Of a stretch of DNA of 64,000 bases, positions 12,189-54,837 are shown in pieces. Below the pieces are notes generated by a model that made no database searches, had not been told where the DNA came from, and saw nothing but the letters and a program-made list of their open reading frames with translations. Each line of letters begins with the position of its first letter. Position 1 is the first letter of the stretch. This stretch comes from Jiella mangrovi (GTDB taxonomy: Bacteria > Pseudomonadota > Alphaproteobacteria > Rhizobiales > Rhizobiaceae). Position numbers and translations under genes: made by a program. The DNA is taken from assembly GCF_017815135.1 (NCBI RefSeq), contig NZ_JAGJCF010000001.1, forward strand, positions 310,001 to 374,000, in the 5' to 3' direction.

Positions 12189-12199
12189 CCCGCGCCGCC

Positions 12200-13051: not shown

Positions 13052-13164
13052 CGATGGGGTGCCGGGGAGAGCCGACATCTCACCCGGCTCGATGGGGTCC
13101 AGGGGAAACGCGAAATCTCCCCTCGGTCATGGGGTGTCGGGGAGCTGGAACGCGCCCCGACTGG
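13052..13164. repeat. Three imperfect 38-bp direct repeats
   Basis: Units at 13052-13089, 13090-13127 and 13128-13164 share the head c(g)atggggt and an inner gggga, with a C-rich tail. The second unit contains agggga...tcccct and can form a hairpin. A weaker fourth copy may precede at 13025-13051. Period 38, 38 and 37 bp. There are no spacers, so this is not CRISPR-like. Confidence 0.6.
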
Positions 13165-13649
13165 CGATGCAACGGCCAGACGTTGCGATGGTGCAGGAGA
13201 CGGTTCAATGCCGGTTCATGCACCAAAAGCCGGGGGGATGGAACGGGGGCGCGCAGCGGGCCCCCTTCCCAAGATGGTGCGGCGTATTACGCCCGCACAC
13301 ATCTTGCATCACGGGTCTTCCGACCACAGTTCGCATCGCGAGGTCTTCAGACTACGACTCCCTTGGCGGACCTCCGAAACCTAACCGGATACCCTTACAT
13401 CGGTCTAACGCAAGCGCTGAACTCGAATCCTCGTAGAGTTTCAGCGAGTGACCACTTGCAAGTCCAAACCACGTTATAATTGTAACATTACCTTATTGCC
13501 GTCAGCTCGAATAGCCAGAACATCGACTCTCATACTCAAAAACGGTTACCGGCGCTCCGGAAATCTCCGCCACTTACTTGAACACGCAGAAAATGTGTGT
13601 TTCCATATCTCTCACAGCCGTTGAAAAACGGTGCGCGGGAGGTTGTTAG
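13165..13649. other. Gene-free region before the peroxidase
   Basis: About 485 bp without a credible gene. GC content falls from high to low across it, marking a composition boundary at about 13.3-13.5 kb. AT-rich sequence near 13470-13500 could hold the peroxidase promoter, but no clear -35/-10 pair with normal spacing was found. Confidence 0.4.
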
Positions 13650-15401
13650 ATGCTTTTCTTTATGCACCACGGACGAGGCTCACGTTCCGAACGCTCGGAA
13701 AGAGAGACTTGGGATTCAGGCGCTCATCGGTGCAGAAGGAAAGATGCCACCGCAGACTGCGACCCGGATGGAAATCCCTTTGGCTATTTGTTTGATGCTG
13801 AAGATACACCAACACACACTGCAAGTCAGATTAAGCAGCTTGCAAACGAAATCACGGCCAACGCGGTTGAGCCAGCGGAACGTGACAGCAACCTCCCTCC
13901 CGTCTTTACATATCTGTCGCAATTCATTGATCACGATTTAACTGCTAACACGGATCGAGATACGAGTTTATCTGAGATTGGTCCGGAAGATGCGGATCTG
14001 ACGCCGCTACCGCGAGATAAGGTTTTGTGTTTTCTTGGAAACTTACGCAAAGGATCGCTTGGGCTTGATAGCGTATATGGGGACGGTCCCGAACTGTCCC
14101 TCACGCCGGAGCAGCAAGAAGTTGTCCAAAAACTACAAAGCGCGATGCGATGGATGAGTGGACCTTTTGTAGGGAAGCTCCGATTGGCTCGACCCGGCTC
14201 GAAAAGCCATCAAGGCGCGGTAGACATTCCACTCCCAGCAGACGACGGCATACAAGCGGCCGATCTGCTGCGGCTCGGCAACATTATTGGTGAATTGATT
14301 AGCGCAGATGACCTTCGCAAACTGCCAAACGAAATGGCCAAGATTTTCTTCGTAGATGAGACCCTGAATGAGCCTCAAAAGGCGAGAGCAATCATTGGTG
14401 ACATGCGCAATGACGAGAACTTGATCGTTGCGCAACTTCAAACTGCTTTTATACGACTCCACAATGTTATTGTGGACTGGTTACGCTCCCAGGGCATGGC
14501 GGAAGACGACCTGTTTAGTGAGGCGCGGGAACTTGTTCGCTATCACTATCAATGGTTAGTTCTTAATGTTTTTCTACCCACCATTTGCAATAAACATATA
14601 GTTCAGCGAGCAATAAACAACGCGGCCCCGCTATACACGCAATTCCTTAAGCAATTTGATGGTGTGAGCCATGCCTCAATGCCTATGCCATTGGAGTTCT
14701 CCGTAGCCGCCTATCGCTATGGACACTCAATGATACGTGAGAGCTACGATTACAATCGAAATTTTGGACTGGAAGCGAACGCTGCACCCGAACTTACATT
14801 CAGGGAAGCATTCCAGTTTACAGGCGGTGGCGGCCTCAATGGTGTAAACGACGGTAATCTCCCCGCCGATCTGCTCATTGAATGGGTTCGATACGTAATG
14901 CCAATAGCAAGTCAGCCCCAGCCTTCCGGAAAAACACCAAGACGTGCAGCCCGCAAAATCGACAGCCACCTCAATTTTGAACTTAATAATATGGTCAACG
15001 AAGAAAATGTTGGGGTTTTTCAGAGATTAGCTGAGCGAAATCTACGCCGTGCACAACGACTTAATGTAGGGACCGGGCAGCAGTTATTCAAAGCGCTGGG
15101 TTCGAGTGCATATTCGGACTTAATTGAAGCAGTTGATACGTCCGAAATTATGCCACCTTTCGACAATCAAACTCCGCTTTGGCTATACGTCCTAAAAGAG
15201 GCGGAGAAAAAGGGTGGTGATCGACTAGGATCAGTCGGTAGCGCTATCGTGGCCGACACGTTGGTTGGACTTGTGATTAACGATCCGAAGTCATATTGGC
15301 AAGTGAAAGGCTCTCAATGGCACCCCCGTGATGGAGCGAAGCCTAACGGATTCGAGCTTTCTTCTCTGGAAAATCTATTTTGCGCCACCGGACAAATTTA
15401 A
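13650..15401 (+). CDS. Animal-type haem peroxidase family protein
   Basis: A 583-residue member of the peroxidase-cyclooxygenase superfamily. Distal His is in FIDHD (His95), the catalytic Arg-x-x-Glu is in GDMRNDEN (Arg253, Glu256), followed by LIVAQLQTAFIRLHN, and the proximal His is in YRYGHSMIRESYDYN (His359). No signal peptide is seen. Bacterial members oxidise halides, lipids or phenolics with peroxide; the substrate here is unknown. The ATG at 13650 has a strong Shine-Dalgarno (ggaggt, 13638-13643). GC content is clearly lower than that of neighbours on both sides, so this gene was probably acquired separately. It is monocistronic. Confidence 0.85.
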   Translation: MLFFMHHGRGSRSERSERETWDSGAHRCRRKDATADCDPDGNPFGYLFDAEDTPTHTASQIKQLANEITANAVEPAERDSNLPPVFTYLSQFIDHDLTANTDRDTSLSEIGPEDADLTPLPRDKVLCFLGNLRKGSLGLDSVYGDGPELSLTPEQQEVVQKLQSAMRWMSGPFVGKLRLARPGSKSHQGAVDIPLPADDGIQAADLLRLGNIIGELISADDLRKLPNEMAKIFFVDETLNEPQKARAIIGDMRNDENLIVAQLQTAFIRLHNVIVDWLRSQGMAEDDLFSEARELVRYHYQWLVLNVFLPTICNKHIVQRAINNAAPLYTQFLKQFDGVSHASMPMPLEFSVAAYRYGHSMIRESYDYNRNFGLEANAAPELTFREAFQFTGGGGLNGVNDGNLPADLLIEWVRYVMPIASQPQPSGKTPRRAARKIDSHLNFELNNMVNEENVGVFQRLAERNLRRAQRLNVGTGQQLFKALGSSAYSDLIEAVDTSEIMPPFDNQTPLWLYVLKEAEKKGGDRLGSVGSAIVADTLVGLVINDPKSYWQVKGSQWHPRDGAKPNGFELSSLENLFCATGQI

Positions 15402-15836
15402 TCCCGAAATGAGCGTTCATTTCAGTTTGTGTAGAAAAGCGTTGGGCGCGTACAATGACATGGGATTTTCTTTAATTTTTAGAAGTGTGCTTTCGAGATG
15501 GCGGAATACCCGACGGTGACGCCCCTCGTCAAAGCGCATCATATTTCGTGCGTTGCATTTTGTGAAGAAATCCCTTGACGCTAAGCGAATATTTTGGGAT
15601 AATAATCCTGCATACGCCAATAGTGCGTTTTTTCACTCGATCGCATTCGCGATTGGTGGTAATTATCCTTAAATAAATTCAGCTGCGGGTAACGTGCGCT
15701 TTCTGCGCCGGCTGAACGGCGCATTGCAGCTGTATTTTCGCTGCACGATTCACCACCGATTCGGCGAACATCTCGAAATTGCAACTATAGTACGGGACGT
15801 GGACGCTATTGCTGCGTTCGCGAATTGGTTTTCGTC
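15402..15836. other. AT-rich gene-free region
   Basis: A 435-bp stretch with no convincing gene; short open frames in it overlap each other and lack ribosome binding sites. Its right half should contain the promoter for the recombinase operon. No inverted repeats typical of insertion sequences were noticed. Confidence 0.4.
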
Positions 15837-16124
15837 ATGCCTCCAGATTTCAACAAGTACCGAAAATATGTCGATCGCTTCGACCTGCCCGCCGACGCCC
15901 AGCAGGAACTTGTCCTAACCGTCTGGCGGATCATGGAGAACTTTGTCGATCGAGCCTTCTGCTTCGATCCGACCCAACAAGTCCGCGCTGGCTGGGTCGA
16001 CAAAGATGCAAATAGGGCCCAGCCCATGTTAGAATTCCGGCAGGAACATCAGCCAAAAGGGAAAACCGTTTCCGGCACGTTTAGGCGAGCCTCCGCCGTA
16101 CATTGTCGGACCAAGGAGGAATAG
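15837..16124 (+). CDS. Small hypothetical protein upstream of recombinase
   Basis: A 95-residue protein, start at ATG 15837. The N-terminal half ([21 protein letters not shown], then a helix with [13 protein letters not shown]) is regular and helical; the C-terminal half is basic and less ordered. It ends 4 bp before the recombinase ATG, so the two are cotranscribed. A small partner immediately before a large serine recombinase could be a recombination directionality factor or DNA-binding regulator, but I see no diagnostic motif. Confidence 0.6.
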
Positions 16125-16128
16125 TGCC

Positions 16129-17922
<1,794 letters not shown>

Positions 17923-17941
17923 CCGATGAAAGCCCCTCCCA

Positions 17942-18520
17942 ATGCCCTTATTCTCCAAAGACAAGACCACCGCCAGAACTGCCGCGGCTCTTGCGGCCGG
18001 GGTTGGTGTCGCCCTGATCGCCGGCTTTGCGATCGCCGGCCCGAAGCGGATCTGGAGCTGGACCGCCGGGCCGGCGGATCAGGGATCGGTCGACTTTGCG
18101 ACACTGAAGCGGCGATCCGCGCCCAATGATTCTCTTGCCTGCTCGCCCGGCGTCTGCCGCGAGCCGGTCGATTTCGACCTTCCGACTTATGGCGTTTCCG
18201 CGGAGGCGCTGATGGGACGGCTCGATCGCGTCGTCGAGGCGATGGGCGATGTCAGACGGGTCGATGACGGACGGGACGCCCGTTACCGGCGCTATGTCTT
18301 TCGATCCCGCATCCTGAAATTTCCCGATACGCTCGACGCGAGGGCCTTCGGTGTCGGGGGCGGGACGACCGCGCTCGCGCTCTATTCGCGTTCGCTCCTT
18401 GGACGCGGTGATTTCGGCGTCAACGAAAAGCGCCTGCGCGCCATCGCATCGGCTCTCGCGGCTCCGTCCGCCGTCGAGGGATCGAGCGATCGCCAGACCG
18501 GCCGGGCTGTTTCCGGCTGA
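17942..18520 (+). CDS. DUF1499 family membrane-anchored protein
   Basis: A 192-residue protein with an N-terminal hydrophobic anchor (AALAAGVGVALIAGFAIAG, about residues 15-33). The DUF1499 signature is visible as PNDSLACSPGVC, followed by a fold with two segments around RYRRYVFRSRILKFPD. Proteins of this family are widespread in alphaproteobacteria; their function is not established. It is the first chromosomal gene after the tRNA-Arg boundary and is transcribed on its own or with the transporter that follows. Confidence 0.82.
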   Translation: MPLFSKDKTTARTAAALAAGVGVALIAGFAIAGPKRIWSWTAGPADQGSVDFATLKRRSAPNDSLACSPGVCREPVDFDLPTYGVSAEALMGRLDRVVEAMGDVRRVDDGRDARYRRYVFRSRILKFPDTLDARAFGVGGGTTALALYSRSLLGRGDFGVNEKRLRAIASALAAPSAVEGSSDRQTGRAVSG

Positions 18521-43788: not shown

Positions 43789-43863
43789 TCCCCGGTAGCT
43801 CAGTGGTAGAGCACTCGACTGTTAATCGATCGGTCGCTGGTTCGAATCCGGCCCGGGGAGCCA
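43789..43863 (+). tRNA. tRNA-Asn (anticodon GTT)
   Basis: A 75-nt tRNA: acceptor stem tccccgg/ccgggga, D arm agctcagtggtagagc, anticodon loop with GTT (ctgttaa), TψC loop gttcgaatcc and an encoded CCA. Its last 14 bases are repeated at 54794-54807, so it is the integration site of the phage-satellite-like element, which keeps the tRNA functional. Confidence 0.96.
43850..43863. repeat. attL core of the satellite-like element
   Basis: The 14-bp sequence ggcccggggagcca forms the 3' end of tRNA-Asn and is repeated exactly at 54794-54807. Sequences diverge on both sides of the repeat. It marks the left boundary of the integrated element. Confidence 0.85.
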
Positions 43864-43875
43864 GTTTTTAGAGAT

Positions 43876-43912
43876 AAAGGCCTGAAATCGCTGCGGTTTC
43901 AGGCCTTTTCTT
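43876..43912 (+). terminator. Rho-independent terminator after tRNA-Asn
   Basis: A strong hairpin aaaggcctgaaa / tttcaggccttt with a 9-nt loop, followed by ttctttt. It lies 13 bp after the tRNA 3' end, inside the element. It would end tRNA-Asn transcription and may also serve as the terminator of minus-strand element genes in reverse. Confidence 0.85.
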
Positions 43913-44040
43913 TTCTCCGAACACACTTTTGTTCATAACGGAGACGACCGGTAGGATGAGGCATCCCGCCGGTGTTCTCAAGCCTTGCGCTAGAGCCTCT
44001 TCCCCGCAATGGTCGTCTCTCGACATCCAAGAGGTGAACG

Positions 44041-44319
44041 ATGACAAACGACAACCTTGTTGAAGTGCCTTCTTTCCCGGGTCGGTTTCTCGATGAAGTC
44101 CGGTACACGGCTCTTGTGAAAACCTTAGGCCAGATTTCAATCTCGCTTGCCACTATGTTGGAATTGGCTGAGAAGTTAGACCCGGCCACGTTTAAGGAAT
44201 CCCTTGAGATTATCGATCGCGATACCGTTGAGGCTGTTGCATTTTCTGACATCAAAGAAGATGAATTGCAGCGCCTTAATAAGGCTTTACTTTCCGCACT
44301 GAAGGTCGAAATACGATGA
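44041..44319 (+). CDS. Small AT-rich hypothetical protein of the element
   Basis: A 92-residue helical, acidic protein (LDEVRYTALVKTLGQISISLATM, LDPATFKESLEIIDRDT, EDELQRLNKALLSALK). A good ribosome binding site (gaggtg) precedes the ATG. It is the only plus-strand gene of the element, at its left end, and its GC content is far below that of the other genes. It overlaps the minus-strand zinc-finger gene by 33 bp tail to tail. A cargo or regulatory role is possible; function unknown. Confidence 0.65.
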   Translation: MTNDNLVEVPSFPGRFLDEVRYTALVKTLGQISISLATMLELAEKLDPATFKESLEIIDRDTVEAVAFSDIKEDELQRLNKALLSALKVEIR

Positions 44320-44730
44320 TACATACATTTTTTGACGTCTTTTCTTTGCCCATTCCCTCGATGCCCTACGATGCTCAGCCCGAACGCACTCGGCGCACCG
44401 GAGCGAGTCCCGACGCCTGACGCCCAATATGGGGCCGCCGCAGTCGATGCAGCGAATCGCGCTGATTGGGCCTTTCGTCCGCAGAGTGCGCGCCGCCGTC
44501 CGGCATGGGATGCAGCAATATTTGGCGTCCGACTTCTTCGCGTTCCGAATTGGCTTCTGGCAGTGACGGCAGATGAGCGCAGCCCGCTTTGCCCCTCGAA
44601 TCTGCTTGTCAAAGGCCGCTGCCGAGGCATGGCGGCACTCCGTCGAGCAGTACTTTTGCGCGATCGATTTCGGATCGAAGGGTTGCTCGCACCAAGCGCA
44701 CCGCTCGTCTTCGAGATCGTCAAGGTTCAT
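44287..44730 (-). CDS. Protein with three tandem zinc-finger modules
   Basis: A 147-residue basic protein with three similar Cys modules in a row: CAWCEQPF...KYCSTECRH, CRHCQKPI...KYCCIPCRTA and CIDCGGPI...LRCAECVRA. The spacing is CxxC then about 12 residues then CxxxC or CxxC, as in treble-clef or zinc-ribbon modules. DNA or protein binding is likely. It overlaps the upstream gene by 4 bp and is the last gene of the head operon; a role in regulation, packaging or capsid control is inference only. Confidence 0.6.
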   Translation of the reverse strand: MNLDDLEDERCAWCEQPFDPKSIAQKYCSTECRHASAAAFDKQIRGAKRAALICRHCQKPIRNAKKSDAKYCCIPCRTAARTLRTKGPISAIRCIDCGGPILGVRRRDSLRCAECVRAEHRRASREWAKKRRQKMYVSSYFDLQCGK

Positions 44731-45314
44731 CCCGCCTGTCTCCGATCCACTTGCGAGCAGTGATAGCTACAGAAAGTCTGCCCCTTCCGGTTTGGCTTAA
44801 ACGGATCGTTGCAGGTCGGGCATCGCTGCTCCGGTTGCCGCGCCTTCCAAGCGGCTTTTCCGGCCTTCCAAGCGGCATAGGATTCTTCGTCCCATCGTTG
44901 CCGCTGGCGATCCATCTTGGCGGCATGGGCGCATACGTCGCCACACCACAGGCGATGACCATCAGGGAGCGGCTTGTTGCACCGGGCGCACCGCTCGCGA
45001 GGAACCGGCAGGGCGCCGGGCTGGGTCCACTCCGGCTGCCCTTCGTACCAGTTCGGACGTTTGGCCCGAACGATGTTCAGAGCGCCGAGCGTGACTTCTA
45101 AGGCGACCGCATCGGCAGCTCGCCAAGACCAGCCCTGCAGGCATAGGGATGCTCGAATGCCGGCGCGGCATGGACCCTCGAATGAGAACGCCGTTGGTTC
45201 GGCTTCACGCATCAGATCGGCAATCCGCTCCATTAGAACGCGCTGTCGATCGCGATTGAGACGACGCGGCTTCGTCACGCGGAGCGGCGCGACCCATGGG
45301 ACGCGAGCAAGCAT
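44727..45314 (-). CDS. Protein with C-terminal zinc-finger modules
   Basis: A 195-residue basic protein, start at the ATG 45314, 3 bp after the portal stop. Residues 1-100 are a helical region (RQRVLMERIADLMREAEP, ASLCLQGWSWRAADAVALE); then two Cys modules CARCNKPLPDG...LWCGDVCAHAAK and CPTCNDPFKPN...TFCSYHCSQ of the same type as the following gene. Both genes may descend from one finger array. Function unknown. Confidence 0.6.
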   Translation of the reverse strand: MLARVPWVAPLRVTKPRRLNRDRQRVLMERIADLMREAEPTAFSFEGPCRAGIRASLCLQGWSWRAADAVALEVTLGALNIVRAKRPNWYEGQPEWTQPGALPVPRERCARCNKPLPDGHRLWCGDVCAHAAKMDRQRQRWDEESYAAWKAGKAAWKARQPEQRCPTCNDPFKPNRKGQTFCSYHCSQVDRRQAG

Positions 45315-45316
45315 GA

Positions 45317-46405
45317 TCAGGCCGCCTTGTCGTTTTCGCCCCAATTCACCATCGTCAGCGCCGCGTTGAGATCGCCGGGCGCAAGGCCAGCCTCCTTCGC
45401 TTGAGCGAGCGCCTGGACGATCGTCGCGAGCGCGCGAGCCCTGCCCCCGACATCGAACGCCTGGACCGGCCGCAACAGGTCGATCATCACCTCACTGCCG
45501 AGCTTTTTCGTCGCTTCCTCGGCGAGAAGCATGGCGATCGGCTGGAGGGTCCAACTCGCAAGATGCCGCTGCGCTTCCCTGACGAGCGGTCCTTGCGCAT
45601 TGCTGGCAAAGAGAGCCGGAAGCACGCCGAAGGCACCACAGATCGAATTGCGGGCCGCTGAGAGGCTTTCCGCGATCTGAGAGCGCGAGAGATCGGGAGA
45701 TACGTCCTGCGGCCTCCAGTCCTGCACAGGAGCCGGGCCGCCGGCTGCGGTGACGTTGACGCTCTCGCGCAACAGGACGCGGCCACGGCGCCCGCGGAAG
45801 CCCCTGCCGAGCGTTTCAAGATCGGTGTCGGTGCTTTCCGGGAACGGGACGATCTGAGAGCCCAGCGGGGCATTTTCATAGACCTCGGCAAGCGCGGTCT
45901 CGATGGCCTGGAGCGTGCCGGCGGTGATTGATGCTCGTTTGAGCGGGGCGGTGCCATAGTAGGGCGCGACCGGATCACAGCCGATGCGGAGGTGAAGCAC
46001 CTCGCCGGCAAGGGCCGTCATCGATTGCCCGCCCCCGGCTTCGGAGACACTGACGCGATAGGCGGTCGGCTTGCCATTGCGAGTTCGCAGATCCCAATCG
46101 GCGCAGGGAACAAGGCCGGCGTCGTCGATCAGGAAGACGGCCTCGCCGCGAAGTGCGACAGAGCGGCCAATGAGCGCCAAGGACGCGCGATCAAGCAAAT
46201 CGGTGCCGGAGACATCAGCGAGCGCGAAAGCGCCTTCCCAGAGGCTTATACAGCCCTGCGCGGTGGCAGTCAGTTCGGCGATCCCGCTCCGACCGGAGAT
46301 ATACGCCTCGCGCGCCGCCATGATCTCAGCGGTGAACCCAGAGGCCGCCGACCGCTTCTCGATACCGTTCCCGCCGAAAACGGTTTTCAGCCATCCGAGC
46401 ATCAC
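45317..46405 (-). CDS. Phage portal protein
   Basis: A 362-residue HK97-type portal: WLKTVFGGNG start, FLIDDAGLVPCADWDL, a conserved MTALAGEVLHLRIG, RGRVLLRESVNVTAAGG and NSICGAFGVLPALF with LLAEEATKKLGSEVMI at the end. The portal forms the dodecameric ring through which TerL pumps DNA. It lies between the connector and the zinc-finger genes and overlaps the connector by 4 bp. It is shorter than the usual 400-430 aa, but the domains are in order. Confidence 0.82.
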   Translation of the reverse strand: MMLGWLKTVFGGNGIEKRSAASGFTAEIMAAREAYISGRSGIAELTATAQGCISLWEGAFALADVSGTDLLDRASLALIGRSVALRGEAVFLIDDAGLVPCADWDLRTRNGKPTAYRVSVSEAGGGQSMTALAGEVLHLRIGCDPVAPYYGTAPLKRASITAGTLQAIETALAEVYENAPLGSQIVPFPESTDTDLETLGRGFRGRRGRVLLRESVNVTAAGGPAPVQDWRPQDVSPDLSRSQIAESLSAARNSICGAFGVLPALFASNAQGPLVREAQRHLASWTLQPIAMLLAEEATKKLGSEVMIDLLRPVQAFDVGGRARALATIVQALAQAKEAGLAPGDLNAALTMVNWGENDKAA

Positions 46406-46935
46406 GCCCTCCGATATGGCCGGAGCAAATCACCGGCGCCGCTGTTCTGGACTGCACTCGCCAGCCACGACGGCGAGCGGCGGTGTGTGAGGGTAATCGA
46501 GCCGGCGGTGACGCTCTCGCTTGCAGCGCCAGCCTTGCCGGGCTTCGCGGCCATGTATTCGGCGAGCCGGCGGAAGGCTTCGGATACGACGGCCGGAACG
46601 GCGTCGGTTCCGACGGTGCCGGTGAAGCGGTAGGGACCGCAGCCGGGAAGGACGTAGCCGCCGAAGGGGGAAGGGCTTACTAAGGCGTCAATCCACTCGC
46701 CATCGTCCCACACCTCGATTGTCGAGATGGTCGCCGGGGTGAGCGGCGGGGACCATTCGCCGGAGCCCTCGACGATCCATTCAATGTCGCGAACGCCGAA
46801 GCGATGGGCGACGTAGGCTTCCATCCGTTGCCAGATCATCGTTGCGTCGAGCGCCGCAGCGGCTGCCGAGAGGCCAGCGGGAGCGTCGGGATAGCTGTCG
46901 GGTGTGCCTTCCGACCTGCGGACGGTGACTGCCAT
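46402..46935 (-). CDS. Head-tail connector protein (gp6-like)
   Basis: A 177-residue protein with the pattern of HK97 gp6-type connectors: an N-terminal helix (LSAAAAALDATMIWQRMEAYVAHRFG), a beta-rich middle (WSPPLTPATISTIEVWDDGEW) and a long last helix (VVSEAFRRLAEYMAAKPG). Such proteins form the ring beneath the portal. The assignment rests partly on context: it lies between prohead protease and portal. Overlaps both neighbours by one to four bases. Confidence 0.7.
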   Translation of the reverse strand: MAVTVRRSEGTPDSYPDAPAGLSAAAAALDATMIWQRMEAYVAHRFGVRDIEWIVEGSGEWSPPLTPATISTIEVWDDGEWIDALVSPSPFGGYVLPGCGPYRFTGTVGTDAVPAVVSEAFRRLAEYMAAKPGKAGAASESVTAGSITLTHRRSPSWLASAVQNSGAGDLLRPYRRA

Positions 46936-47555
46936 CAGAGCCTCCAGCGATTGAGGGGGACGATGCGCCGCGTCCCCAAAATCGGGGACACGTTCCAGCT
47001 CCGCTGTTCCTCGACGTTCGCCTCGTCGTAGGCGGGGCGGGTGACGATCGAGAGTTCGAAGAGGATCGCCTGAAGGATGGTCCTGATCAGCGCGCGGCCG
47101 AGGCGCGGATTCTCCTCCTCGACGATCTCGGCATGGTCAGGCGGCACGGCAGCCGGAGGCGGAATGCGGAAGCCCGGCGAGAGACCGATCGCGAGACCGG
47201 AGCCGATGAGCGCGAAGGCGTCCCGCGCATAGGACGTATCGGCCACCTCGGGGACGATCTCCGCGTCCAGCGTCAGGGCCTCGGGGGTGTCGGTAAACGT
47301 CAGGGTGCCGTTGTTCTTCGATGCGAGCGGCTTGTCGAAGGAATGCCCGACAAGCAGGTGAATATCGGCCGGCGACTCCAGCGAGTAGGTGAAGGCGCCG
47401 GGCGCGAATTGCTCTTTCTTCGGACGGCCCGTCTTCCCGCCATCCGAGAGCACGGCCTTCCGATTGTAGGGAAACCGCCCGCGAATGCGGCGCCCTCCCT
47501 TTCGAGAGGACGCGCGCACCTCGAGCGTCGAGTTATCGAAGCCGCCGAACAGCAT
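46935..47555 (-). CDS. HK97-family prohead protease
   Basis: A 206-residue serine protease of the phage U35 family. It starts at ATG 47555, overlapping the capsid stop (ATGA); the longer open frame upstream is a shadow of the capsid gene. Seen: RGRFPYNRKAVL, the catalytic His in HLLVGHSFDKPLASK, and the Ser in LAIGLSPGFR with a final segment ILFELSIVTRPAYDEANVE. It cuts the capsid N-terminal scaffold during maturation. Confidence 0.88.
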   Translation of the reverse strand: MLFGGFDNSTLEVRASSRKGGRRIRGRFPYNRKAVLSDGGKTGRPKKEQFAPGAFTYSLESPADIHLLVGHSFDKPLASKNNGTLTFTDTPEALTLDAEIVPEVADTSYARDAFALIGSGLAIGLSPGFRIPPPAAVPPDHAEIVEEENPRLGRALIRTILQAILFELSIVTRPAYDEANVEEQRSWNVSPILGTRRIVPLNRWRL

Positions 47556-48811
47556 CACTGAATGCCCGTCAGAACTTCGGCCTGGACCGGACGCGCGACC
47601 GTGACATCCATGGTCGCGAGCGCGGTGATCCGAAGCCCGCCGGAGGCAGCATCGCTGTAAGGGTCGCGGATCAGATCGACGGCGCCCCACGTCGCGACGA
47701 AAAACGGCGGAACGCCGCCCGCGGTGACAGTCAGGAGCGCCTTGCTCGCGGCCGGAGTGCCGGTAGGAGCGGCGAGCGCGTTCGTCGCCATAGTGACGTT
47801 CGGAATGTTCTTCGTCAGGCGGTCCCATTCGGTGACTGCCGAGCCGGCATCGACATAGGTTCCGTCCATCGCGTCCCAGACTTCCGGCCGCAGCAGGAGC
47901 CGCACAGCCGAGGGCGAAGCCGCCGCGTTCGCCAGCATGAACCGCGTCACCGCGGCCCGGAACGCCGACCACGACGCGGCCGCGTTGACTGCCGTCACCG
48001 TGATGCCGTAGCCCGCCGCATCGGCAATGATGCCGTCCGGCTGCCCCGAAGCGCCGGAGCCGAGGAAGATTGCCCGATCCATCTCCTGTTCGATCGCGCC
48101 GTTCATGTCGCGGCGCACGGCCTGTTCCAGCGCATCCCCCGACTGCTTGAGCGTCTTGCGGGTGATCTTCATCTGAATGCCCAGGGTGTGATCCGGGGCG
48201 AGCGGCTTGTCGGTCGTAGTGTAAGCTTGCGGCGCACCAACGGAGCCGGTTTCCGAGGACTGCCATCCGGCCGTCACCTGCGAGGTCGTGACCGGATATT
48301 CGATCTCGCCGGAACCGATGTTGATCATCGATCCGCCCATGCGCGCCGCGACACTAGCCGGAAACAGTCGGTCGATGATCGGTCGCGTCTGGATCGGGTC
48401 GGGCGTGCCGCTGGAAACAGTCTCGCCAGCGCGCTTTTCGAGCGCCGCCCAAGGCACGGGAACGCCACGATAGCCGCCCTGCGAACGAAGCTCCTGGACG
48501 ATCTCGGCAGTGACGCCGCTAAGTTGCCGGCCTTCGTCGAGAGCAAGCGCGACCTGACGAAGTTCGAACTTGCCGACCATCTCCGAAAACTCGCGTTCGG
48601 AGCGGGTCTCCAGATCGTCTTTCGCCTCCCGGCGTTCGGCGTCCTCGGTGATCAGCGCCGCGCGATAGCGGGTCTCGTTGGTCCGATATTCCGCATCGAG
48701 GGTTTCCATCGAGCGGGTTTCGTCCTCGGATGGGGATTCCTTTCCGACGAGCCCGGCGAGGGCCTGGCGGATCTCGGACTGACGCCGAGAGATTTTCACA
48801 CTGTCGAGCAT
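47555..48811 (-). CDS. HK97-fold major capsid protein
   Basis: A 418-residue HK97-type capsid precursor. Residues 1-100 form the coiled-coil delta/scaffold region (SEIRQALAGLVGKESPSEDE, TRSMETLDAEYRTNETRYRA), removed by the protease. The mature fold follows: GSMINIGSGEIEYPVTTSQ, GWQSSETGSVGA, LGIQMKITRKTLKQSG, DRAIFLGSGASGQPDGI and a final IRDPYSDAASGGLRITALA. The start at 48811 overlaps the HNH stop by 16 bp. With the protease downstream, a self-sufficient head is expected. Confidence 0.92.
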   Translation of the reverse strand: MLDSVKISRRQSEIRQALAGLVGKESPSEDETRSMETLDAEYRTNETRYRAALITEDAERREAKDDLETRSEREFSEMVGKFELRQVALALDEGRQLSGVTAEIVQELRSQGGYRGVPVPWAALEKRAGETVSSGTPDPIQTRPIIDRLFPASVAARMGGSMINIGSGEIEYPVTTSQVTAGWQSSETGSVGAPQAYTTTDKPLAPDHTLGIQMKITRKTLKQSGDALEQAVRRDMNGAIEQEMDRAIFLGSGASGQPDGIIADAAGYGITVTAVNAAASWSAFRAAVTRFMLANAAASPSAVRLLLRPEVWDAMDGTYVDAGSAVTEWDRLTKNIPNVTMATNALAAPTGTPAASKALLTVTAGGVPPFFVATWGAVDLIRDPYSDAASGGLRITALATMDVTVARPVQAEVLTGIQ

Positions 48812-49128
48812 TGGGTGCCTCCTTTGGGGGTCAGCTCGTTCACAAGGTCGCGCCATGCCTGGCGCCGTGGGTCGATCTCGGCGAGACCGATTTCAACGCG
48901 GGTTTTCCGCGAATGGCAGGGGACGCAGAGCGTCTGGAGATTGGAGAGATCGAAGGCGAGTTCGCGGTGCGTCCGCACCGGCTTGATGTGATCGACTTCG
49001 AGATCGCCGGCCGCGCCGCATTGGACGCAGCGATAGCCGTCCCGACGCTTCGCCAGCGCTCGGAGAGCCTTCCAACGGGGCGTGCGGTAAATGTCCGCCC
49101 CGGCGCGCTTGTATGTCTTCACGCCCAT
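48796..49128 (-). CDS. HNH endonuclease (phage packaging type)
   Basis: A 110-residue HNH nuclease: YRTPRWKALRALAKRRDGYRC start, zinc Cys pairs CVQCG and CVPCH, and the core LEVDHIKP...LSNLQTLCVPCHSRKT (H, N, H). HNH proteins next to TerL are required for cos-type packaging in HK97-like phages. It sits between terL and capsid, the usual place, and overlaps terL by 10 bp. Confidence 0.92.
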   Translation of the reverse strand: MGVKTYKRAGADIYRTPRWKALRALAKRRDGYRCVQCGAAGDLEVDHIKPVRTHRELAFDLSNLQTLCVPCHSRKTRVEIGLAEIDPRRQAWRDLVNELTPKGGTQCSTV

Positions 49129-50732
49129 ACCGCGCCCCTCGATTGTCGCGCCGGCCTTGCGACCTGTCGCGCCCCCTCAGCAACAGCGAGGACAGAGGCC
49201 GCCGCAGCGTCGATCCTGCCGAGCGAGCGGGCCTTGGCGAGCTTGTGATTGCCAGCGGGGTCAATCAGTGTGATCGCATCGGAGAAGGCAGACCGGAGAA
49301 GCAGCGAGGGACGGGTTTTCACGCATCCATCAAACAGCGCACGGCGGAAGCGCTCGATATCCTCGCTGCCGTCTTTCCAGCCGAAGCCTCGCCAGATGAA
49401 CGGCACGCGAAGATTGGCTTTCGCCATGGCTTCGGAGAACTCGGCGTAGCGGAAGCGGTCGCCGACAATGCAGGTGATTGCCGAGCCGCCAGCGAGCTTG
49501 ACGACTTCGGCAAGCCATGGACCGGGCGGGACCGTATTCGATCCCATCACCGTCAATTCGCCGCGATCGTTCATCTCGGAATAACGCCGCCCGACGCCAT
49601 CAGCCGCGCCACGATCGGCGAGGGACGGGACCGCGGGGAACGTGCCGACCGCCTCCAGACGGCCCGTCTGCGGCCAGTAGAACGCCGCCGCCGACATGGA
49701 GCGAGAGCCGCCGAGATCGACGCCGAGAATGCACGGCCCGTCCCGGTCCGGGAGATCGTCGGGCGCCACCTCGGCAGTCAGCCACTCGTCAACGGTGATC
49801 AGAACCGACCGATCTTCCGTCGATACTCGTTCGTTGCGATTGAGATTGCGGAAGGAAGAGAGCGCTGAGCCGCCGCGGGCGATGGCGCGCCGAGCTTGAG
49901 TCTGGAGCCATTCGAGCGAGGCGCCGATGCCTTCGGTTGCACCGGGGTTCGCGATCAAGAGCGAATCGGCGTCATCGGCCGGAAGGCCGAAGGCCGGGCG
50001 ATGCTCCTGGACGTATGTTCCGGCCGGAGGCTCGTCGAGCCATCGGCTGAAGGTGTTGGCGTCATCGGGCGCGCTCGTCGAGATGATCAGAGCCTTGCCG
50101 TTGCGCTTGCCCAGGCCAGAGAGGATTGCATTCTCCAGCGTGTCGCCCTTGTCGCGTTCCCAGGCAGCCCGTTCGTCGAGAATGGCGAGGGTCGGCGCGC
50201 CGCCGAGGATCGATCGGCCATCGGCCGCAATACTGCGAGCGAGCCCGCCGCCCTTGTCGAGATATTCGACCTCAAGCCGGGAGCCACGCCGAATGATGAA
50301 CCGCTCGCGCTTGGCTTTCGGCAGGCTTTCGACGAAGCCCACAATGAAGTTGAAGGCGGTCTTTGCTTGATCGCGATTTCGAGCCGCCAAGAGAACGTCG
50401 CGCTTTGGCTGCGCATCCCATTCGCCCATGATCGAGCCGAGCGCGAGGCCGGCCGAAAGCGCCGTTTTGGCATTGCCGCGACCGATCGAGAGCACGGCCA
50501 CCATGTTCGCGGGATCGAGAGCGCCTTCAACGAACTTTCGTTGGAAGCCGGCGAGCTTCAGCCGCTTACCCGCCTTCGGTCCTTCCGGGATTTTCAGAGC
50601 CTCAAGGAACCGGATCGCCTTTTCGGCGGTCGATTTTCCCCGGGCAATCTTGGGAGAGAGAGAAGAACAGCCCGCCCCCTCGAAGCCTCCCCCACCCAGA
50701 CGGCCCGGCATTGGCACCACTTCGGCACTCAT
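49119..50732 (-). CDS. Terminase large subunit
   Basis: A 537-residue packaging motor. ATPase: adenine/arginine-finger region FQRKFVEGALDP, Walker A-like LSIGRGNAKTALSAG (about residues 81-95), Walker B TLAILDERAAWER, and STSAPDD (coupling motif). Nuclease: GVDLGGSRSMSAAAFYW, VIGD-like ITCIVGDRF and C-terminal GRIDAAAASVLAVA. The degenerate Walker A GRGNAKT is normal for TerL. A small terminase subunit was not certain; the 69-residue HTH protein upstream is a candidate. It overlaps the preceding head-closure gene by 4 bp. Confidence 0.92.
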   Translation of the reverse strand: MSAEVVPMPGRLGGGGFEGAGCSSLSPKIARGKSTAEKAIRFLEALKIPEGPKAGKRLKLAGFQRKFVEGALDPANMVAVLSIGRGNAKTALSAGLALGSIMGEWDAQPKRDVLLAARNRDQAKTAFNFIVGFVESLPKAKRERFIIRRGSRLEVEYLDKGGGLARSIAADGRSILGGAPTLAILDERAAWERDKGDTLENAILSGLGKRNGKALIISTSAPDDANTFSRWLDEPPAGTYVQEHRPAFGLPADDADSLLIANPGATEGIGASLEWLQTQARRAIARGGSALSSFRNLNRNERVSTEDRSVLITVDEWLTAEVAPDDLPDRDGPCILGVDLGGSRSMSAAAFYWPQTGRLEAVGTFPAVPSLADRGAADGVGRRYSEMNDRGELTVMGSNTVPPGPWLAEVVKLAGGSAITCIVGDRFRYAEFSEAMAKANLRVPFIWRGFGWKDGSEDIERFRRALFDGCVKTRPSLLLRSAFSDAITLIDPAGNHKLAKARSLGRIDAAAASVLAVAEGARQVARPARQSRGAVWA

Positions 50733-51085
50733 TGCCGCGCCTGCACGATGAACAGCGCACCGGATGCGTCACGCCCTGCGGTGATGACTTCGTAGGTCTC
50801 TCCGCCGACCGTGATGGTGTCTTGCTGCGATGGGATGATGGCAATGGTGGTAACGAGGATGACGATCTTGATGTCGGTATCGCCGATCACCTGCCCATCG
50901 CGGTCGCGGTCCTCATAGAGTTCGATCCATCCGCGCCCCTGATACTCGACCGAGCCGCCCACGTCGTCAGGATCATACGGATCGCCTGGCACAGTGCGCG
51001 TTACCGTCACGTCGCGCGGGACGTTGGCATCCGTGAGCGCCTGTGTGACTTCCGCGGCGAGTTCGCTTTCAAGGATCGAGACCAT
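50729..51085 (-). CDS. Probable head-closure/head-tail joining protein
   Basis: A 118-residue mostly beta protein (VSILESELAAEVTQAL, DPDDVGGSVEYQGRGWIELY, KIVILVTTIAIIPSQQDTIT, EVITAGRDASGALFIVQAR). The barrel pattern ending with a YEV-G-Dase stretch fits head-completion stoppers such as HK97 gp7-like proteins. It comes directly before terL. The family is suggested by pattern only. Confidence 0.55.
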   Translation of the reverse strand: MVSILESELAAEVTQALTDANVPRDVTVTRTVPGDPYDPDDVGGSVEYQGRGWIELYEDRDRDGQVIGDTDIKIVILVTTIAIIPSQQDTITVGGETYEVITAGRDASGALFIVQARQ

Positions 51086-51130
51086 GCCGAGTGTATGCGG
51101 GAACCGGCATGGCCCATGCCATCGGGCGCT

Positions 51131-51340
51131 TTAGGCTGCTTTGGGGTTCTTTGGGGTTGCCCGGTTTTCGGCCCTGCGCATCCAGTCCGAAAGCTCGTCT
51201 TCGAAGGCATAGAGCCGGCCGCCGGCTTTGTAGATCGGCGCATCGCTGTCGCGTGCCAGCGCATAGACGCCATCGGCTCCCATGCGCAGGAAACGCCCGA
51301 TCGCGCCCGCTGTCCAGATGATCGGCAAGGGTGTCGTCAT
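51131..51340 (-). CDS. Small HTH DNA-binding protein (possible TerS or excisionase)
   Basis: A 69-residue protein with a winged-helix or HTH start (AGAIGRFLRMGADGVYALA, then DSDAPIYKAGGRLYAFEDELSDWMR). This is the compact MerR/excisionase-type fold: helix, turn, recognition helix, hairpin with a Tyr/Phe-rich end. It lies between the DUF1376 gene and the head-closure gene. It could control the late genes or, given the position two genes before terL, act as a small terminase. Confidence 0.55.
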   Translation of the reverse strand: MTTPLPIIWTAGAIGRFLRMGADGVYALARDSDAPIYKAGGRLYAFEDELSDWMRRAENRATPKNPKAA

Positions 51341-51347
51341 CGCGCCC

Positions 51348-51995
51348 TCACTGCATCATGATCTGATCGAGGATGGATTGATCGAGCCGACCTTCCATCA
51401 GCATCGGCAATGCTCTCTCGACCTGACGCGGCTGAAGATCATGGCGACGAAGGAAGGCCCGCCCCTCACTGTCAGTCTCAGGGATCGAGAAGCATCCGGG
51501 CCGGCTCTCTCGCGTGCGCGCGTACGTGCGTGTAGGTGCTAACCTTTCTTCGTAGCGTACTTCATCTGGCGCTGGTGCTGGTGGCCATTGGTTATCCATT
51601 GGTTCTGTCATTGAGCCTGCCATGCGTTTGCCAATGGCATTCGCATTGGTTCTGCCAATGGTCCTGCTATCCTTCGACCATCGCTTGTCAGCGCCCTTTC
51701 GTCCCGCCGCGACTTTGCGTTCGCGCTTCTCGGCGGCATCGGCCCTCATCTCGTCCAGCTTGGGGAGATGCCAGCCGTCATCGAACAGATCGCAGATCCC
51801 GGAGCGGACTTCCGTCCATCGATCGGGAGCAACGCCAGTCACTCGCATCAGTCGAGCGTCGTCGTTCGGCAGACCGCCATGCTGCCAGTAATGTCGGCGA
51901 AGGCGCTCGTAAGCGCCGAACTCCTCGGCAGTGAGGTGGCCCGTTAAGGCCGCCTCGTCACCGATATATGTTTTCATCCAAGCGAGGTCCGTCAT
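51348..51995 (-). CDS. DUF1376 (YdaU-type) replication-associated protein
   Basis: A 215-residue protein. The N-terminal DUF1376 domain shows DLAWMKTYIGDEAALTGHLT, EFGAYERLRRHYWQHGGLP, and LMRVTGVAPDRWTEV; a basic linker and a variable C-terminal part (RRHDLQPRQVERALPML) follow. DUF1376 proteins stand in phage replication regions and are thought to help origin unwinding or helicase loading. It is the only replication-like gene in the element. Overlaps the next upstream gene by 4 bp. Confidence 0.8.
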   Translation of the reverse strand: MTDLAWMKTYIGDEAALTGHLTAEEFGAYERLRRHYWQHGGLPNDDARLMRVTGVAPDRWTEVRSGICDLFDDGWHLPKLDEMRADAAEKRERKVAAGRKGADKRWSKDSRTIGRTNANAIGKRMAGSMTEPMDNQWPPAPAPDEVRYEERLAPTRTYARTRESRPGCFSIPETDSEGRAFLRRHDLQPRQVERALPMLMEGRLDQSILDQIMMQ

Positions 51996-52234
51996 AGCGC
52001 CCCCGCATTGAGGCCGATCAAGCCTTCATCGGAGAGCCGGCGCCGTTCGCGGTTCAGCGCCCCCTCGGTTTCGACGCGGATCGTTTCAACAGGCTGGCCA
52101 CGCCGATGGATTATGAGGACGTAGCCGCGGCCTGATGGCTCGAACGTGAAGTGAGACTTTGCGCCGATGGCTTCTGTCGGGTTGGCGCGCTCGAAAGGCT
52201 TCCTGCCTTGGGACAGGTCGCGAGGGCCGCTCAT
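51992..52234 (-). CDS. Small hypothetical protein of the element
   Basis: An 80-residue protein from the ATG at 52234 (overlapping the preceding stop by 4 bp). Core sequence GAKSHFTFEPSGRGYVLIIHRRGQP is beta-rich and the end is a charged helix. No family recognised. Confidence 0.6.
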   Translation of the reverse strand: MSGPRDLSQGRKPFERANPTEAIGAKSHFTFEPSGRGYVLIIHRRGQPVETIRVETEGALNRERRRLSDEGLIGLNAGAL

Positions 52235-52566
52235 TCGCCGTCCTCCGGCTCGCCTTCGTCCTCGACGTTCAGCTCGCCATCGACGATCCAACAGGAGGCA
52301 TAGCTTGCCGCGCCCTGGTGGATCGTTTCCAGCCTGCCGAGCGATGGTTCCTTGTCGGACGGGTCTTCTTCCAAATCGTGTTGGAAGCCAGCCTCGGTCC
52401 AATAGCCGCTACCGCCGAGGTCCGGCTCGTTGTCGCCGCCGTCCTCGGCATCGGGCTCAAATTCGAGGTCGGGATCGCCGTCCATCTCGTCGAGAACGTT
52501 GATCAGGGCTTCTATCTTGGCCTCAGTCTTTCGGCGCTGCTCAGTCTCGATAACCGCCCCCATCAC
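52231..52566 (-). CDS. Small very acidic protein of the element
   Basis: A 111-residue protein with about one third Asp/Glu (EMDGDPDLEFEPDAEDGGDNE) and few basic residues. Such acidic phage proteins can be DNA mimics or anti-host factors, but no family is recognised. It overlaps alpA by 4 bp. Confidence 0.6.
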   Translation of the reverse strand: MMGAVIETEQRRKTEAKIEALINVLDEMDGDPDLEFEPDAEDGGDNEPDLGGSGYWTEAGFQHDLEEDPSDKEPSLGRLETIHQGAASYASCWIVDGELNVEDEGEPEDGE

Positions 52567-52778
52567 GCCACCTCGCGATTGCGGTCGGCGATGCGGTCAC
52601 GAATCCAGTCCTCGACCTCGGCACGGACGAACGCCACGCGCTTGTCGCCGAGGGGGACGGCTTTGGGAAACTTGCCTACGCCACGCCAGCGATTGATGGC
52701 GGTGCGGCTGAGCGAAGTCAGCCGGCAGGCATCATTGAGACTGATCAGATTTGGGGTGTCGGGCATCTGCCGCTCCAT
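52563..52778 (-). CDS. alpA: AlpA-family transcriptional regulator
   Basis: A 71-residue AlpA/MerR-type DNA-binding protein: NLISLNDACRLTSLSRTAIN, WRGVGKFPKAVPLGDKRVAF and VRAEVEDWIRDRIADR, the characteristic AlpA order. In PICIs and P4-like elements AlpA switches on int and other genes. The ATG at 52778 was used; a TTG one codon upstream is possible. A gap of 108 bp upstream contains its promoter. Confidence 0.9.
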   Translation of the reverse strand: MERQMPDTPNLISLNDACRLTSLSRTAINRWRGVGKFPKAVPLGDKRVAFVRAEVEDWIRDRIADRNREVA

Positions 52779-52886
52779 CAAATGAGCGGCGGGTTTGACT
52801 ATGCCGCTCGGGTTGAACGGCCCCTCTAGTAACCAGATCTATCAGCCGGTCACGCCTGTGAAATCTCCAGAAACCCCACTCTCAGT
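52779..52886. promoter_or_regulatory. Probable promoter region of alpA-head operon
   Basis: The only gap larger than 100 bp within the minus-strand array. It likely holds the promoter for alpA and the downstream genes and a binding site for its regulator. No certain -10/-35 pair was identified. Confidence 0.35.
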
Positions 52887-53456
52887 TTATGCAGATGGTT
52901 TCTGCCGAAATTCTTCTTCCCAAGCGTAGATGGATTTTGGCGAAGGGGGTTTCCCTCCTACCGCTGCTTCCATCTCCCTTTGGAGTTCCTTGATGCTACG
53001 TCCCTTTCGATCGCAGCCCTGTTGGAAGTACCAATGCTTGGCGGGATGCTGCGGACGCCCGCCCTTGTCATTTGGCGGCAAGAGTTCGTCCAACGCCTTG
53101 CGGATCACTTCCTCGGCATGCCTGTCATCAATCAGAACTCGCGCACCATGCCATTCGGAAAGATGGGCGATGTGGTGGTCCATAGGGTCAAAAACGCTGC
53201 ACTGCAGTCGCGATGCAGGAACATAATGAAGCTCGTCAGGAGACAGTCGCGCTTCTCGCCGGTCAGGATGCTGTAAGATCGCCCCGTCTCCATGCTCGCG
53301 GAGCACATCGCAACAAACGCCTTTGATCGTGTTCTCGATATGAAAAATCCAGTAGAGGCGACCGGATGAATAAAGATCCATCTTGTCCCACTTCGGAATG
53401 TTTTTCGCCCGAAGCTTTTCGTTAACTTGCTCAAATATCCATCCAATGTACTTCAT
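52887..53456 (-). CDS. Hypothetical protein downstream of integrase
   Basis: A 189-residue protein beginning YIGWIFEQVNEKLRAKN, with a central HIAHLSEWHGARVLIDDRHAEE and a basic C-terminus (EKHWYFQQG-like, RSIKELQREMEAA). It overlaps the integrase stop by 4 bp, so it is cotranscribed with the integrase. AT content is higher than in the head genes. No family recognised. Confidence 0.6.
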   Translation of the reverse strand: MKYIGWIFEQVNEKLRAKNIPKWDKMDLYSSGRLYWIFHIENTIKGVCCDVLREHGDGAILQHPDRREARLSPDELHYVPASRLQCSVFDPMDHHIAHLSEWHGARVLIDDRHAEEVIRKALDELLPPNDKGGRPQHPAKHWYFQQGCDRKGRSIKELQREMEAAVGGKPPSPKSIYAWEEEFRQKPSA

Positions 53457-54667
53457 GAGCCTGCCGCCATGAGAACAATGTTGTCAGCAAATCTGGCCAT
53501 GCAATAGCCCGCCCATGCATCCATCAGCTTCCGCCGCTTCTCCAATGCATCGCCGCGTCGATAGGCGCGCTCCACTGCATCGCCGACCGAATGCGCGAGC
53601 GCGGCCTCGGCGACCTCGCGCTGGAAATTGGTTTCCTCGGCGACCCAATCGCGGAAGCTGGAGCGGAAGCCGTGAACGGTGAACTCGCCAGAGCCGGCCG
53701 ACTTGAGCGCCTTGGCAAGCGACATATCGGAAAGTGGACGGCCTGTGCGCTGCCCCGGGAAAACCAGATCATTGACGGCGGTAGCCTTCATCGTCCGAAG
53801 GATTTCGACGGCGCGCGCAGAAAGCGGAACGCGGTGCGCCTTGCCGGTCTTCATTCGCTCGGCGGGGATGGTCCAGAGCGCAGCCTCTAGATCGATCTCT
53901 TGCCATGTCGCGCCCCGCGCCTCGCCGCTGCGAACGGCAGTCAAAACCGTGAACTCCAATGCCCTTGCTCCGACGCCCTGCACTTCATGGAGTCGCTGGA
54001 GGAATGCAGCGACTTCGGCGAAGGGCATGGCGGCGTGATGCCCTCGCGATAGCTTTGCGGGCGCCGGAAGGATCTGATCAAGATGGCCCTTCCATTGCGC
54101 AGGATTCTCGCCAGAGCGCAGCCCTCGCGCCTTGGCGTGATCGAGCACAAGTTTGGTCCGCTCCCGGACCTTCGTCGCCGTCTCCGGCTTGTCATGCCAA
54201 AGCGGGCGAAGGACACGGAGAACGTCTTCCGTCGTCAGCTTATCGATCGGCACTTTGCGAATGGAGGTGACGTAGCTTCCTGCGAACCGCTCCCACGCGG
54301 CAACTGTCTTGGCACCACGCCACTTCGGCCGCATCGTCGTGATGTACTCGTCTGCGACTTGGCCGAATGTGATCACGCGAGCCGCGGCCTTGCGCTCTGC
54401 CATGTCGGTTTTCGGATCACCGCCGGAGCCGACGATCTCTCGGGCTTCATCTGCCTTCGATCGAGCCGTAGCGAGTGAGACGTGAGCCGTTCCAGAGCCG
54501 TAGGGTCCAAGGCCGATCTCTCGCCGAGTGCCGAAGCGCCTCCAGATGAAAACCCATGATCGCCGGCCTGTCGCCTGGACACGCAGGTAAAGCCCATCAC
54601 CGTCGCCGTAGATGCCCGGCGTGGTTAGACTCCTGATTTTGCTGTCCGTCAGCTTGTGACGTGGCAT
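53453..54667 (-). CDS. int: Tyrosine integrase, P4 type (DUF4102 N-terminus)
   Basis: A 404-residue tyrosine recombinase. N-terminal arm-binding domain (LTDSKIRSLTTPGIYGDGDGLYLRV, RREIGLGPYGSG), SAM-like core-binding domain (ITFGQVADEYITTMRPKW) and catalytic domain with Arg in LTAVRSGEARGATW, His-x-x-Arg in FTVHGFRSSFRDW, a further His in ALAHSVGDAVERAY and nucleophile Tyr in AYRRGD. It integrates the element in the tRNA-Asn 3' end. It lies 127 bp from the right att site and is transcribed inwards. Confidence 0.93.
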   Translation of the reverse strand: MPRHKLTDSKIRSLTTPGIYGDGDGLYLRVQATGRRSWVFIWRRFGTRREIGLGPYGSGTAHVSLATARSKADEAREIVGSGGDPKTDMAERKAAARVITFGQVADEYITTMRPKWRGAKTVAAWERFAGSYVTSIRKVPIDKLTTEDVLRVLRPLWHDKPETATKVRERTKLVLDHAKARGLRSGENPAQWKGHLDQILPAPAKLSRGHHAAMPFAEVAAFLQRLHEVQGVGARALEFTVLTAVRSGEARGATWQEIDLEAALWTIPAERMKTGKAHRVPLSARAVEILRTMKATAVNDLVFPGQRTGRPLSDMSLAKALKSAGSGEFTVHGFRSSFRDWVAEETNFQREVAEAALAHSVGDAVERAYRRGDALEKRRKLMDAWAGYCMARFADNIVLMAAGS

Positions 54668-54681
54668 CCATAACGCCTTTC

Positions 54682-54740
54682 ATAACCGGCTTGGCTGTCA
54701 CTCGGGATAACCTGTGCGACCACTTTGCCATGGCGGTTAT
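54682..54740. promoter_or_regulatory. Candidate integrase arm-type sites inside attR
   Basis: The hexamer ataacc occurs at 54682-54687 and 54707-54712 and in reverse (ggttat) at 54735-54740, in the 127 bp between the integrase start and the att core. Repeated short motifs beside the core are the usual layout of arm-type sites. The promoter of int must also lie here. Confidence 0.4.
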
Positions 54741-54793
54741 GAAAATCAATATGATGAGTGCAATAAAGTCATTAGTTTCAGCGGCTTGGATAA

Positions 54794-54807
54794 GGCCCGG
54801 GGAGCCA
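54794..54807. repeat. attR core of the satellite-like element
   Basis: Exact copy of the 14-bp ggcccggggagcca at the tRNA-Asn 3' end (43850-43863). Right end of the element. Flanking bases differ from those of the left copy. Confidence 0.85.
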
Positions 54808-54837
54808 ATTCGGTTGCATCGATAACCCGTTCATCCC

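Follow-up and report, generated by a model that had tools for sequence, protein, structure and literature searches.

A family of small, tail-less elements with their own phage head genes, found in Jiella mangrovi and related bacteria, that probably spreads by borrowing the tails of other viruses

In a 64,000-nucleotide stretch of the Jiella mangrovi genome (contig NZ_JAGJCF010000001.1, positions 310,001 to 374,000; here called the window), a tRNA-Asn gene lies next to a block of phage-like genes on the opposite strand that ends in a tyrosine integrase gene. The block is bounded by two copies of a 14-bp direct repeat, GGCCCGGGGAGCCA, composed of the tRNA 3' end plus one base. The span between the two repeats (10,944 bp) is filled by 16 intact minus-strand genes (Table 1). 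An earlier note, made from the letters of the window, had described 14-bp repeats of the tRNA 3' end bounding a 10.9-kb, almost gap-free array. Both copies were located and the tRNA was called as tRNA-Asn. Nearly all of the 16 genes do overlap or abut, but the description needs amending in two small respects: a 92-aa ORF lies on the plus strand, and orfA and the AlpA gene are about 100 bp apart. The gene functions read in that note (int, alpA, DUF1376, TerL, HNH, capsid, protease, portal and connectors) are borne out by Pfam, PHROG and structural matches, and the tail and lysis genes that it reported as missing were not found in the element by Pfam and PHROG scans either.

Table 1. Features of the element and its integration site (positions in the window)
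Feature	Position	Strand	Evidence or remark
tRNA-Asn(gtt), integration target	43789..43863	+	ARAGORN; vacant site in six congeners
att direct repeat, tRNA side	43851..43864	.	GGCCCGGGGAGCCA; repeat match
92-aa ORF between orfE and tRNA	44041..44319	+	No family match
orfE, 147 aa, zinc-finger-like phage protein	44287..44730	-	phrog_1333/2308
orfD, 205 aa, Cys-rich, zinc-ribbon-like	44727..45344	-	CxxC motifs
Portal protein, 362 aa	45317..46405	-	PF04860 E 3.5e-14
Head-tail adaptor (Ad1-like; most likely), 177 aa	46402..46935	-	No sequence match; structural model, pLDDT 89
Prohead serine protease S78	46935..47555	-	PF04586 E 8e-18
Major capsid protein, HK97 fold	47555..48811	-	PF05065 E 9e-17; alignment; model and fold search
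HNH endonuclease, packaging type, 110 aa	48796..49128	-	PF01844; phrog_144
Large terminase TerL, 537 aa, HK97-like	49119..50732	-	PF03354, PF20441; phrog_9 E 5e-55
Hc1-like head-closure protein, 118 aa	50729..51085	-	phrog_161 E 4e-15
Small helix-turn-helix protein, 69 aa	51131..51340	-	Weak HTH_17 match
DUF1376 protein, 215 aa, primosomal/replication-initiation-like	51348..51995	-	PF07120; phrog_3992 primosomal protein
orfC, 80 aa	51992..52234	-	No family match; dN/dS 0.08
orfB, 111 aa	52231..52566	-	No family match; kept in congener, dN/dS 0.16
AlpA, 72 aa, excisionase/transcription regulator	52563..52781	-	PF05930 E 5e-12; phrog_66
orfA, 189 aa	52887..53456	-	No Pfam or PHROG match
Tyrosine integrase, 404 aa	53453..54667	-	Arm-DNA-bind_3, Phage_int_M, Phage_integrase
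att direct repeat, integrase side	54795..54808	.	Repeat match

The element's own head genes are all present: major capsid, protease, portal and head-tail connectors. The capsid start was placed at a conserved MLxSVKI (the ORF itself extends to 48856). The predicted structure, together with a fold search, gives a helical N-terminal region followed by the HK97 fold, and this helical region is predicted to be cleaved away. For the 177-aa protein between protease and portal, a model was built from an alignment of 58 relatives. Its top eight structural matches are all phage neck proteins (best E 0.003, TM about 0.5), from T5-like phages, the Agrobacterium phages Milano and 7-7-1, and Mycofy1, and the modelled protein is for this reason most likely a head-tail adaptor. 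The gene set of the element thus extends as far as the neck and then ends. Packaging genes comprise TerL and HNH. No small terminase was recognised in the element by Pfam and PHROG scans, and the small helix-turn-helix protein is a positional candidate for this subunit or, alternatively, for a second excisionase. A PICI in the strict sense is induced by a helper phage and has alpA and a primase-type replication gene; the element has AlpA, and a DUF1376 gene takes the place of a primase as the replication gene here. Some relatives do have primases. Homologs of orfD sit after the portal gene in some relatives.

To examine the integration site, we used the right-flank host genes, which were found in nine congeners. 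In six of these the site is vacant: one repeat copy is present, and the same right-hand gene comes immediately after tRNA-Asn, with no element between them. The repeats are therefore not a chance match. A seventh congener (G400) carries a related element at the same tRNA-Asn, in which the integrase-side att region (54631-54810) is 95-100% conserved. Comparison of the two elements gives dN/dS values of 0.03-0.26 in 10 of 11 genes, which adds to the statement of the earlier note, confirmed here, that all frames are intact. The eleventh, the small helix-turn-helix gene, is nearly identical even at synonymous sites, and the DNA over 51120-51390 is about 96% conserved.

Searching with the capsid returned 25 loci in GTDB genomes, at 54-74% identity; IMG/VR added at least 80 contigs, mostly of 4-14 kb. 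The head block is shared by 105 loci, 96 of which show at least five of the six head genes. Whether gene order is conserved in relatives had been proposed as a check: the order TerL-HNH-capsid-protease-(adaptor)-portal is found in 94 of these 96 loci, and the remaining two have the same order when read across a circular or tandem junction. Named hosts include members of the Rhodobacterales (Rhodovulum, Roseovarius, Paracoccus, Shimia and Marivita), the Rhizobiales/Hyphomicrobiales (Aurantimonas, Consotaella, Methylosinus, Methylocystis and Methyloceanibacter) and the Sphingomonadales (Sphingobium, Erythrobacter and Altericroceibacterium), as well as the gammaproteobacterium Salinisphaera. Sixteen relatives are bounded by exact direct repeats at the 3' end of a tRNA gene, with eight kinds of target (Lys, Asn, Glu, Ser, Arg, Met, Leu and Cys). 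Together with the window, these repeat-bounded elements measure 8.5-11.2 kb (mean 10.36, SD 0.62). In addition, the head block is carried by contig L119, whose 127-bp end overlap closes it into a circle of 10,231 bp. No integrase was detected in this circle or in its kin L078; the latter was considered as a perfect tandem repeat, which was rejected as its two head blocks are only 83% identical.

Linkage of int and alpA to the head module in relatives had also been set as a test. The integrase stays linked: one is present in all 15 integrated elements scanned, and BLAST places one near the head block in 45 of the 61 loci that are 9 kb or longer, which is a minimum count. AlpA occurs in the window and in several relatives but not in all. 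The integrase, the att sites and the discrete insertion are all present in the element itself. Neck genes vary among relatives (for example, Hc1 precedes TerL in the window and HNH in others), pointing to the tail interface as the part of these elements that is swapped. One relative, L021, carries a protein that we judge by eye to be gp10-like.

Tail and lysis genes were sought in the 118 non-core ORFs of 16 relatives (15 att-bounded elements and the circular L119), since their presence there had been named as an observation that would count against a satellite. The complete Pfam list for these ORFs (21 families) contains no tail, baseplate, holin or endolysin family; it includes integrases (15 proteins), AlpA/HTH proteins, replication initiators, primases and a gp6-like connector. 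PHROGs adds head-tail adaptor and Hc1 proteins, with no tail or lysis family among the 25 listed of 81. Likewise, 18 further loci gave none among the 25 listed of 44 families. Small ORFs are easily overlooked by such scans, which would also fail to pick up a tail gene that has diverged strongly. Outside the head block there is only about 5 kb per element, mostly integrase and replication genes. The longest virus contig (L122, 42 kb) contains such an element, whose own integrase marks its end beside a region that bears a CI repressor. Two loci with distant TerL proteins (L164 and L167) show no tails among the families listed and are uninformative as a positive control for tail detection.

We then asked whether homologs are confined to full prophages, another outcome that had been named as counting against a satellite. 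A search of 50,697 phage records revealed no full phage with the same head lineage: identity reaches no more than 28% for the capsid and 30% for TerL (HK97/HK022 group), the portal has no tblastn match and Hc1 no match. In a class-wide genome sample, TerL identities drop from 61% to 33% with nothing between. In the TerL tree, every member sampled falls into a single clade with a support of 100; the branch leading to it is 2.66 changes per site long, and the TerL proteins of HK97 and Sp7 lie outside this clade. HK97-type siphophages (HK97 and HK022) resemble the element in having the nearest TerL of any isolated phage (29-30%), an HK97-fold capsid and their own protease, portal, adaptor and head closure. 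They differ in being 39.7-kb phages with tails and lysis genes, and nothing close to the element's capsid or portal was found.

These results bear directly on whether the element is a decaying remnant of a full temperate phage whose tail and lysis genes have been deleted. Such a deletion could leave tail-less head genes, and a minority of relatives are indeed decayed or broken (two, L030 and L043). Against this, the tail-less, integrase-bearing form of 10.4 +/- 0.6 kb recurs across several alphaproteobacterial orders and in Salinisphaera, its genes are intact and under purifying selection, and its head lineage occurs in no full phage of the set searched. A decaying prophage was rejected on these grounds (family-wide size, intact frames, purifying selection and no tailed relative) and we consider it very unlikely.

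The reading we prefer, with a probability of roughly 85%, is that the element is an integrated capsid-forming phage satellite that makes its own head and takes tail and lysis functions from a helper phage. This draws on the gene set, the intact and selected frames, the att and empty sites, the tight size and the absence of detectable tail or lysis genes, all established at the level of sequence. The earlier note had proposed a cf-PICI-like satellite in an alphaproteobacterium, and the occurrence of the head block in relatives, the tight size and the lack of tails support this.

We compared the element with a prophage of E. coli Sakai. Sp1 and Sp2 were initially considered as the cf-PICI reference and dropped (Sp2 is P4-like); Sp7, which by its gene content we take to be EcCIEDL933, was used instead. 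As in the element, the Sp7 capsid gene lies ahead of the portal gene. The overall orders differ: the element has Hc1-TerL-HNH-capsid-protease-adaptor-portal while Sp7 has int ... primase ... capsid, protease, portal, adaptor ... TerS, TerL. Identities between the two are 26% for TerL and 30% for the protease, and capsid and portal are not significant. Judged from these sequences, the head lineage of the family is deeply separate from that of Sp7, the one E. coli element compared, and this single comparison gave no sign of specific kinship between the two.

More generally, cf-PICIs as described in PMC10690885 have genes of their own for capsid, protease, portal and connectors, for the large and the small terminase and for HNH, and tails are all that they need from elsewhere. 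The element likewise combines an integrase and a regulator with a capsid, protease, portal, connectors, TerL and HNH of its own, and is tail-less, but TerS was not recognised in it. According to the same paper cf-PICIs work by borrowing tails, and the family would work in the same way. The family is also smaller (about 10.4 kb) than cf-PICIs, for which PMC10803314 gives an average of 14 kb and, as main sources, enterobacteria, Pasteurella, Morganellaceae and Firmicutes; alphaproteobacterial hosts are absent from its list. In PMC11389934, cf-PICI capsids are reported in three separate clades, so that kinship with one clade is not a strict requirement for a cf-PICI.

Other satellites share some of these properties. 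The Streptomyces satellites MulchRoom and MiniFlayer have their own capsid and packaging genes, and MulchRoom integrates and appears to use the tail of its helper (PMC10690885). By description they are set apart by their size (14.8-17.4 kb), direct terminal repeats, virulent helpers and actinobacterial hosts (PMC10690885). The marine VEIMEs and tycheposons, and the PICMIs, are, again by description, similar in being small phage-linked satellites or mobile elements with an integrase, but PICMIs lack capsid genes and their concatemers are packaged in helper heads (PMC10803314).

A complete head and neck, with two Cys-rich proteins encoded after the portal, might also belong to a tail-less virus whose heads infect alone by means of a vertex structure in place of a tail. 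We regard this as highly improbable: together, the portal, the Ad1-like adaptor and Hc1 make up a neck, a structure known to serve for docking a tail, and no lysis or receptor-binding gene was found in the element.

Alphaproteobacteria also carry gene transfer agents with HK97-fold head genes, and this host has an RcGTA-type cluster, at a separate locus on another contig. A domesticated head module, serving as a gene transfer agent or as a host defence device, is nevertheless hardly to be credited, since the element is mobile, is absent from six congeners, has its own integrase and att sites, and has a size that matches unit-length self-packaging. Identity with a gene transfer agent was rejected: such agents have tails, lack an integrase, are a fixed part of the chromosome and package random DNA, and the real one of this host is the separate cluster. 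Just as hard to credit is a capsid-forming satellite whose heads take the tails of the gene transfer agent rather than those of a phage; the host cluster does encode a tail, and a search of the PF05065 family finds such capsids in this host only in that cluster and in the element, but relatives live in Salinisphaera, where RcGTA-type agents are not expected, and the element and the agent have no demonstrated common connector.

As a capsid-forming satellite of a helper phage, the element would follow a simple cycle. A helper in the same cell would induce it, and the integrase with AlpA would excise it from tRNA-Asn. The DUF1376 protein would start replication on the host machinery. TerL and HNH would then package DNA of unit length, by way of the portal that the element encodes, into a small HK97-fold head made by the element itself and matured by the S78 protease. 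The adaptor and Hc1 would complete the neck, and the helper would supply tail and lysis. A search for a helper through Hc1 gave no phage; besides satellite relatives it hit a single weak match (G109, 29%), and thus identified no helper. The family as a whole is widespread and probably spreads in this way, by borrowing the tails of other viruses.

The size of the head can be estimated from HK97, whose 39.7-kb genome is packaged in a T=7 head. If capacity scales with T^1.5, a T=3 head would hold about 11.1 kb and a T=4 head 17 kb. By volume, the elements (8.5-11.2 kb) would fit a T=3 head and the 15.5-kb Sp7 a T=4 head. Taken further, the clade may have arisen independently of the described cf-PICI radiations, as capsid-forming satellites based in alphaproteobacteria that have spilled over into Salinisphaera. 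On this reading an approximately T=3 head, among the smallest HK97-type DNA heads, would hold one genome of about 10.4 kb, and a fixed head core would be combined with necks that are swapped to fit different helper tails; we judge the chances of this reading as a whole to be evenly balanced.

If the satellite reading is confirmed, capsid-forming satellites extend to a major bacterial class of marine, soil and plant-associated habitats for which the literature cited here lists none, and they would have evolved there from a head lineage carried by no isolated phage among the records searched. The family, with its more than 100 loci, many of them sharply bounded at a tRNA, and its nearly constant length, would be a good system for studying head-size control and how the neck of a satellite chooses the tail of its helper. 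In virus databases and alphaproteobacterial genomes, 'short prophages' of about 10 kb can then prove to be complete satellites and not fragments.

Divergence between the element and the related element at the same tRNA-Asn site of the congener is uneven. One short interval (see table) is approximately 96% conserved at the DNA level, compared with approximately 85% in the surrounding DNA, and this conservation extends to synonymous sites of its small helix-turn-helix (HTH) gene. It is a candidate for a packaging site, an origin or a trace of recent recombination. Conversely, HNH (73%) and capsid (69%) match their counterparts in the congener's element less closely than TerL (89%) and protease (80%) do, as if the HNH-capsid block had been exchanged.

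Integrase was not detected in two loci carrying the family's head block (TerL-HNH-capsid-protease-(adaptor)-portal), L119 and L078, which possibly represent a sub-lineage that does not integrate. L119 is a circle of 10,231 bp, while L078 includes two head blocks, 83% identical to each other and with a spacing of 10.2 kb. Both loci also carry a 1033-aa RepB-primase-like protein.

In a 42-kb virus contig (L122), the family member directly adjoins DNA that encodes a CI repressor and a protein with a Toprim domain. This neighbouring region may be a complete prophage integrated in tandem at the site that the family member uses, and might act as its helper. The genome carrying the element also contains an RcGTA-type gene transfer agent cluster. 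At the left end of the window, most of the DNA before a tRNA-Arg has a GC content of 49-58% (the exception is 9-13 kb), compared with approximately 65% beyond this tRNA; the low-GC stretch is possibly another island.

Features and their coordinates
Feature	Sequence	Position	Strand	Content
Conserved interval	window	51120-51390		
HTH gene	window	51131-51340	-	
HNH-capsid block	window	47555-49128		
Left end	window	1-18000		
tRNA-Arg	window	17645-17721		
Gene transfer agent	L175 (G000 C13)	28-48 kb		tape measure, baseplate hub, megatron
Head-only element	L165 (G682 C2)	3844-12804		integrase, HNH, TerL, capsid, Ad1 adaptor, protease, portal; then host-like genes
TerL-related locus	L166 (G710 C3)	7772-14707		TerL, 1215-aa ORF, orfD homolog

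In L166, a TerL at 30% identity is followed by a large ORF, which might be a fused head protein, and a homolog of orfD (the Cys-rich, zinc-ribbon-like gene after portal). Another alphaproteobacterium carries a second head-only element (L165), apparently unrelated to that of the window, which suggests that several lineages of head-only satellites exist within the alphaproteobacteria.
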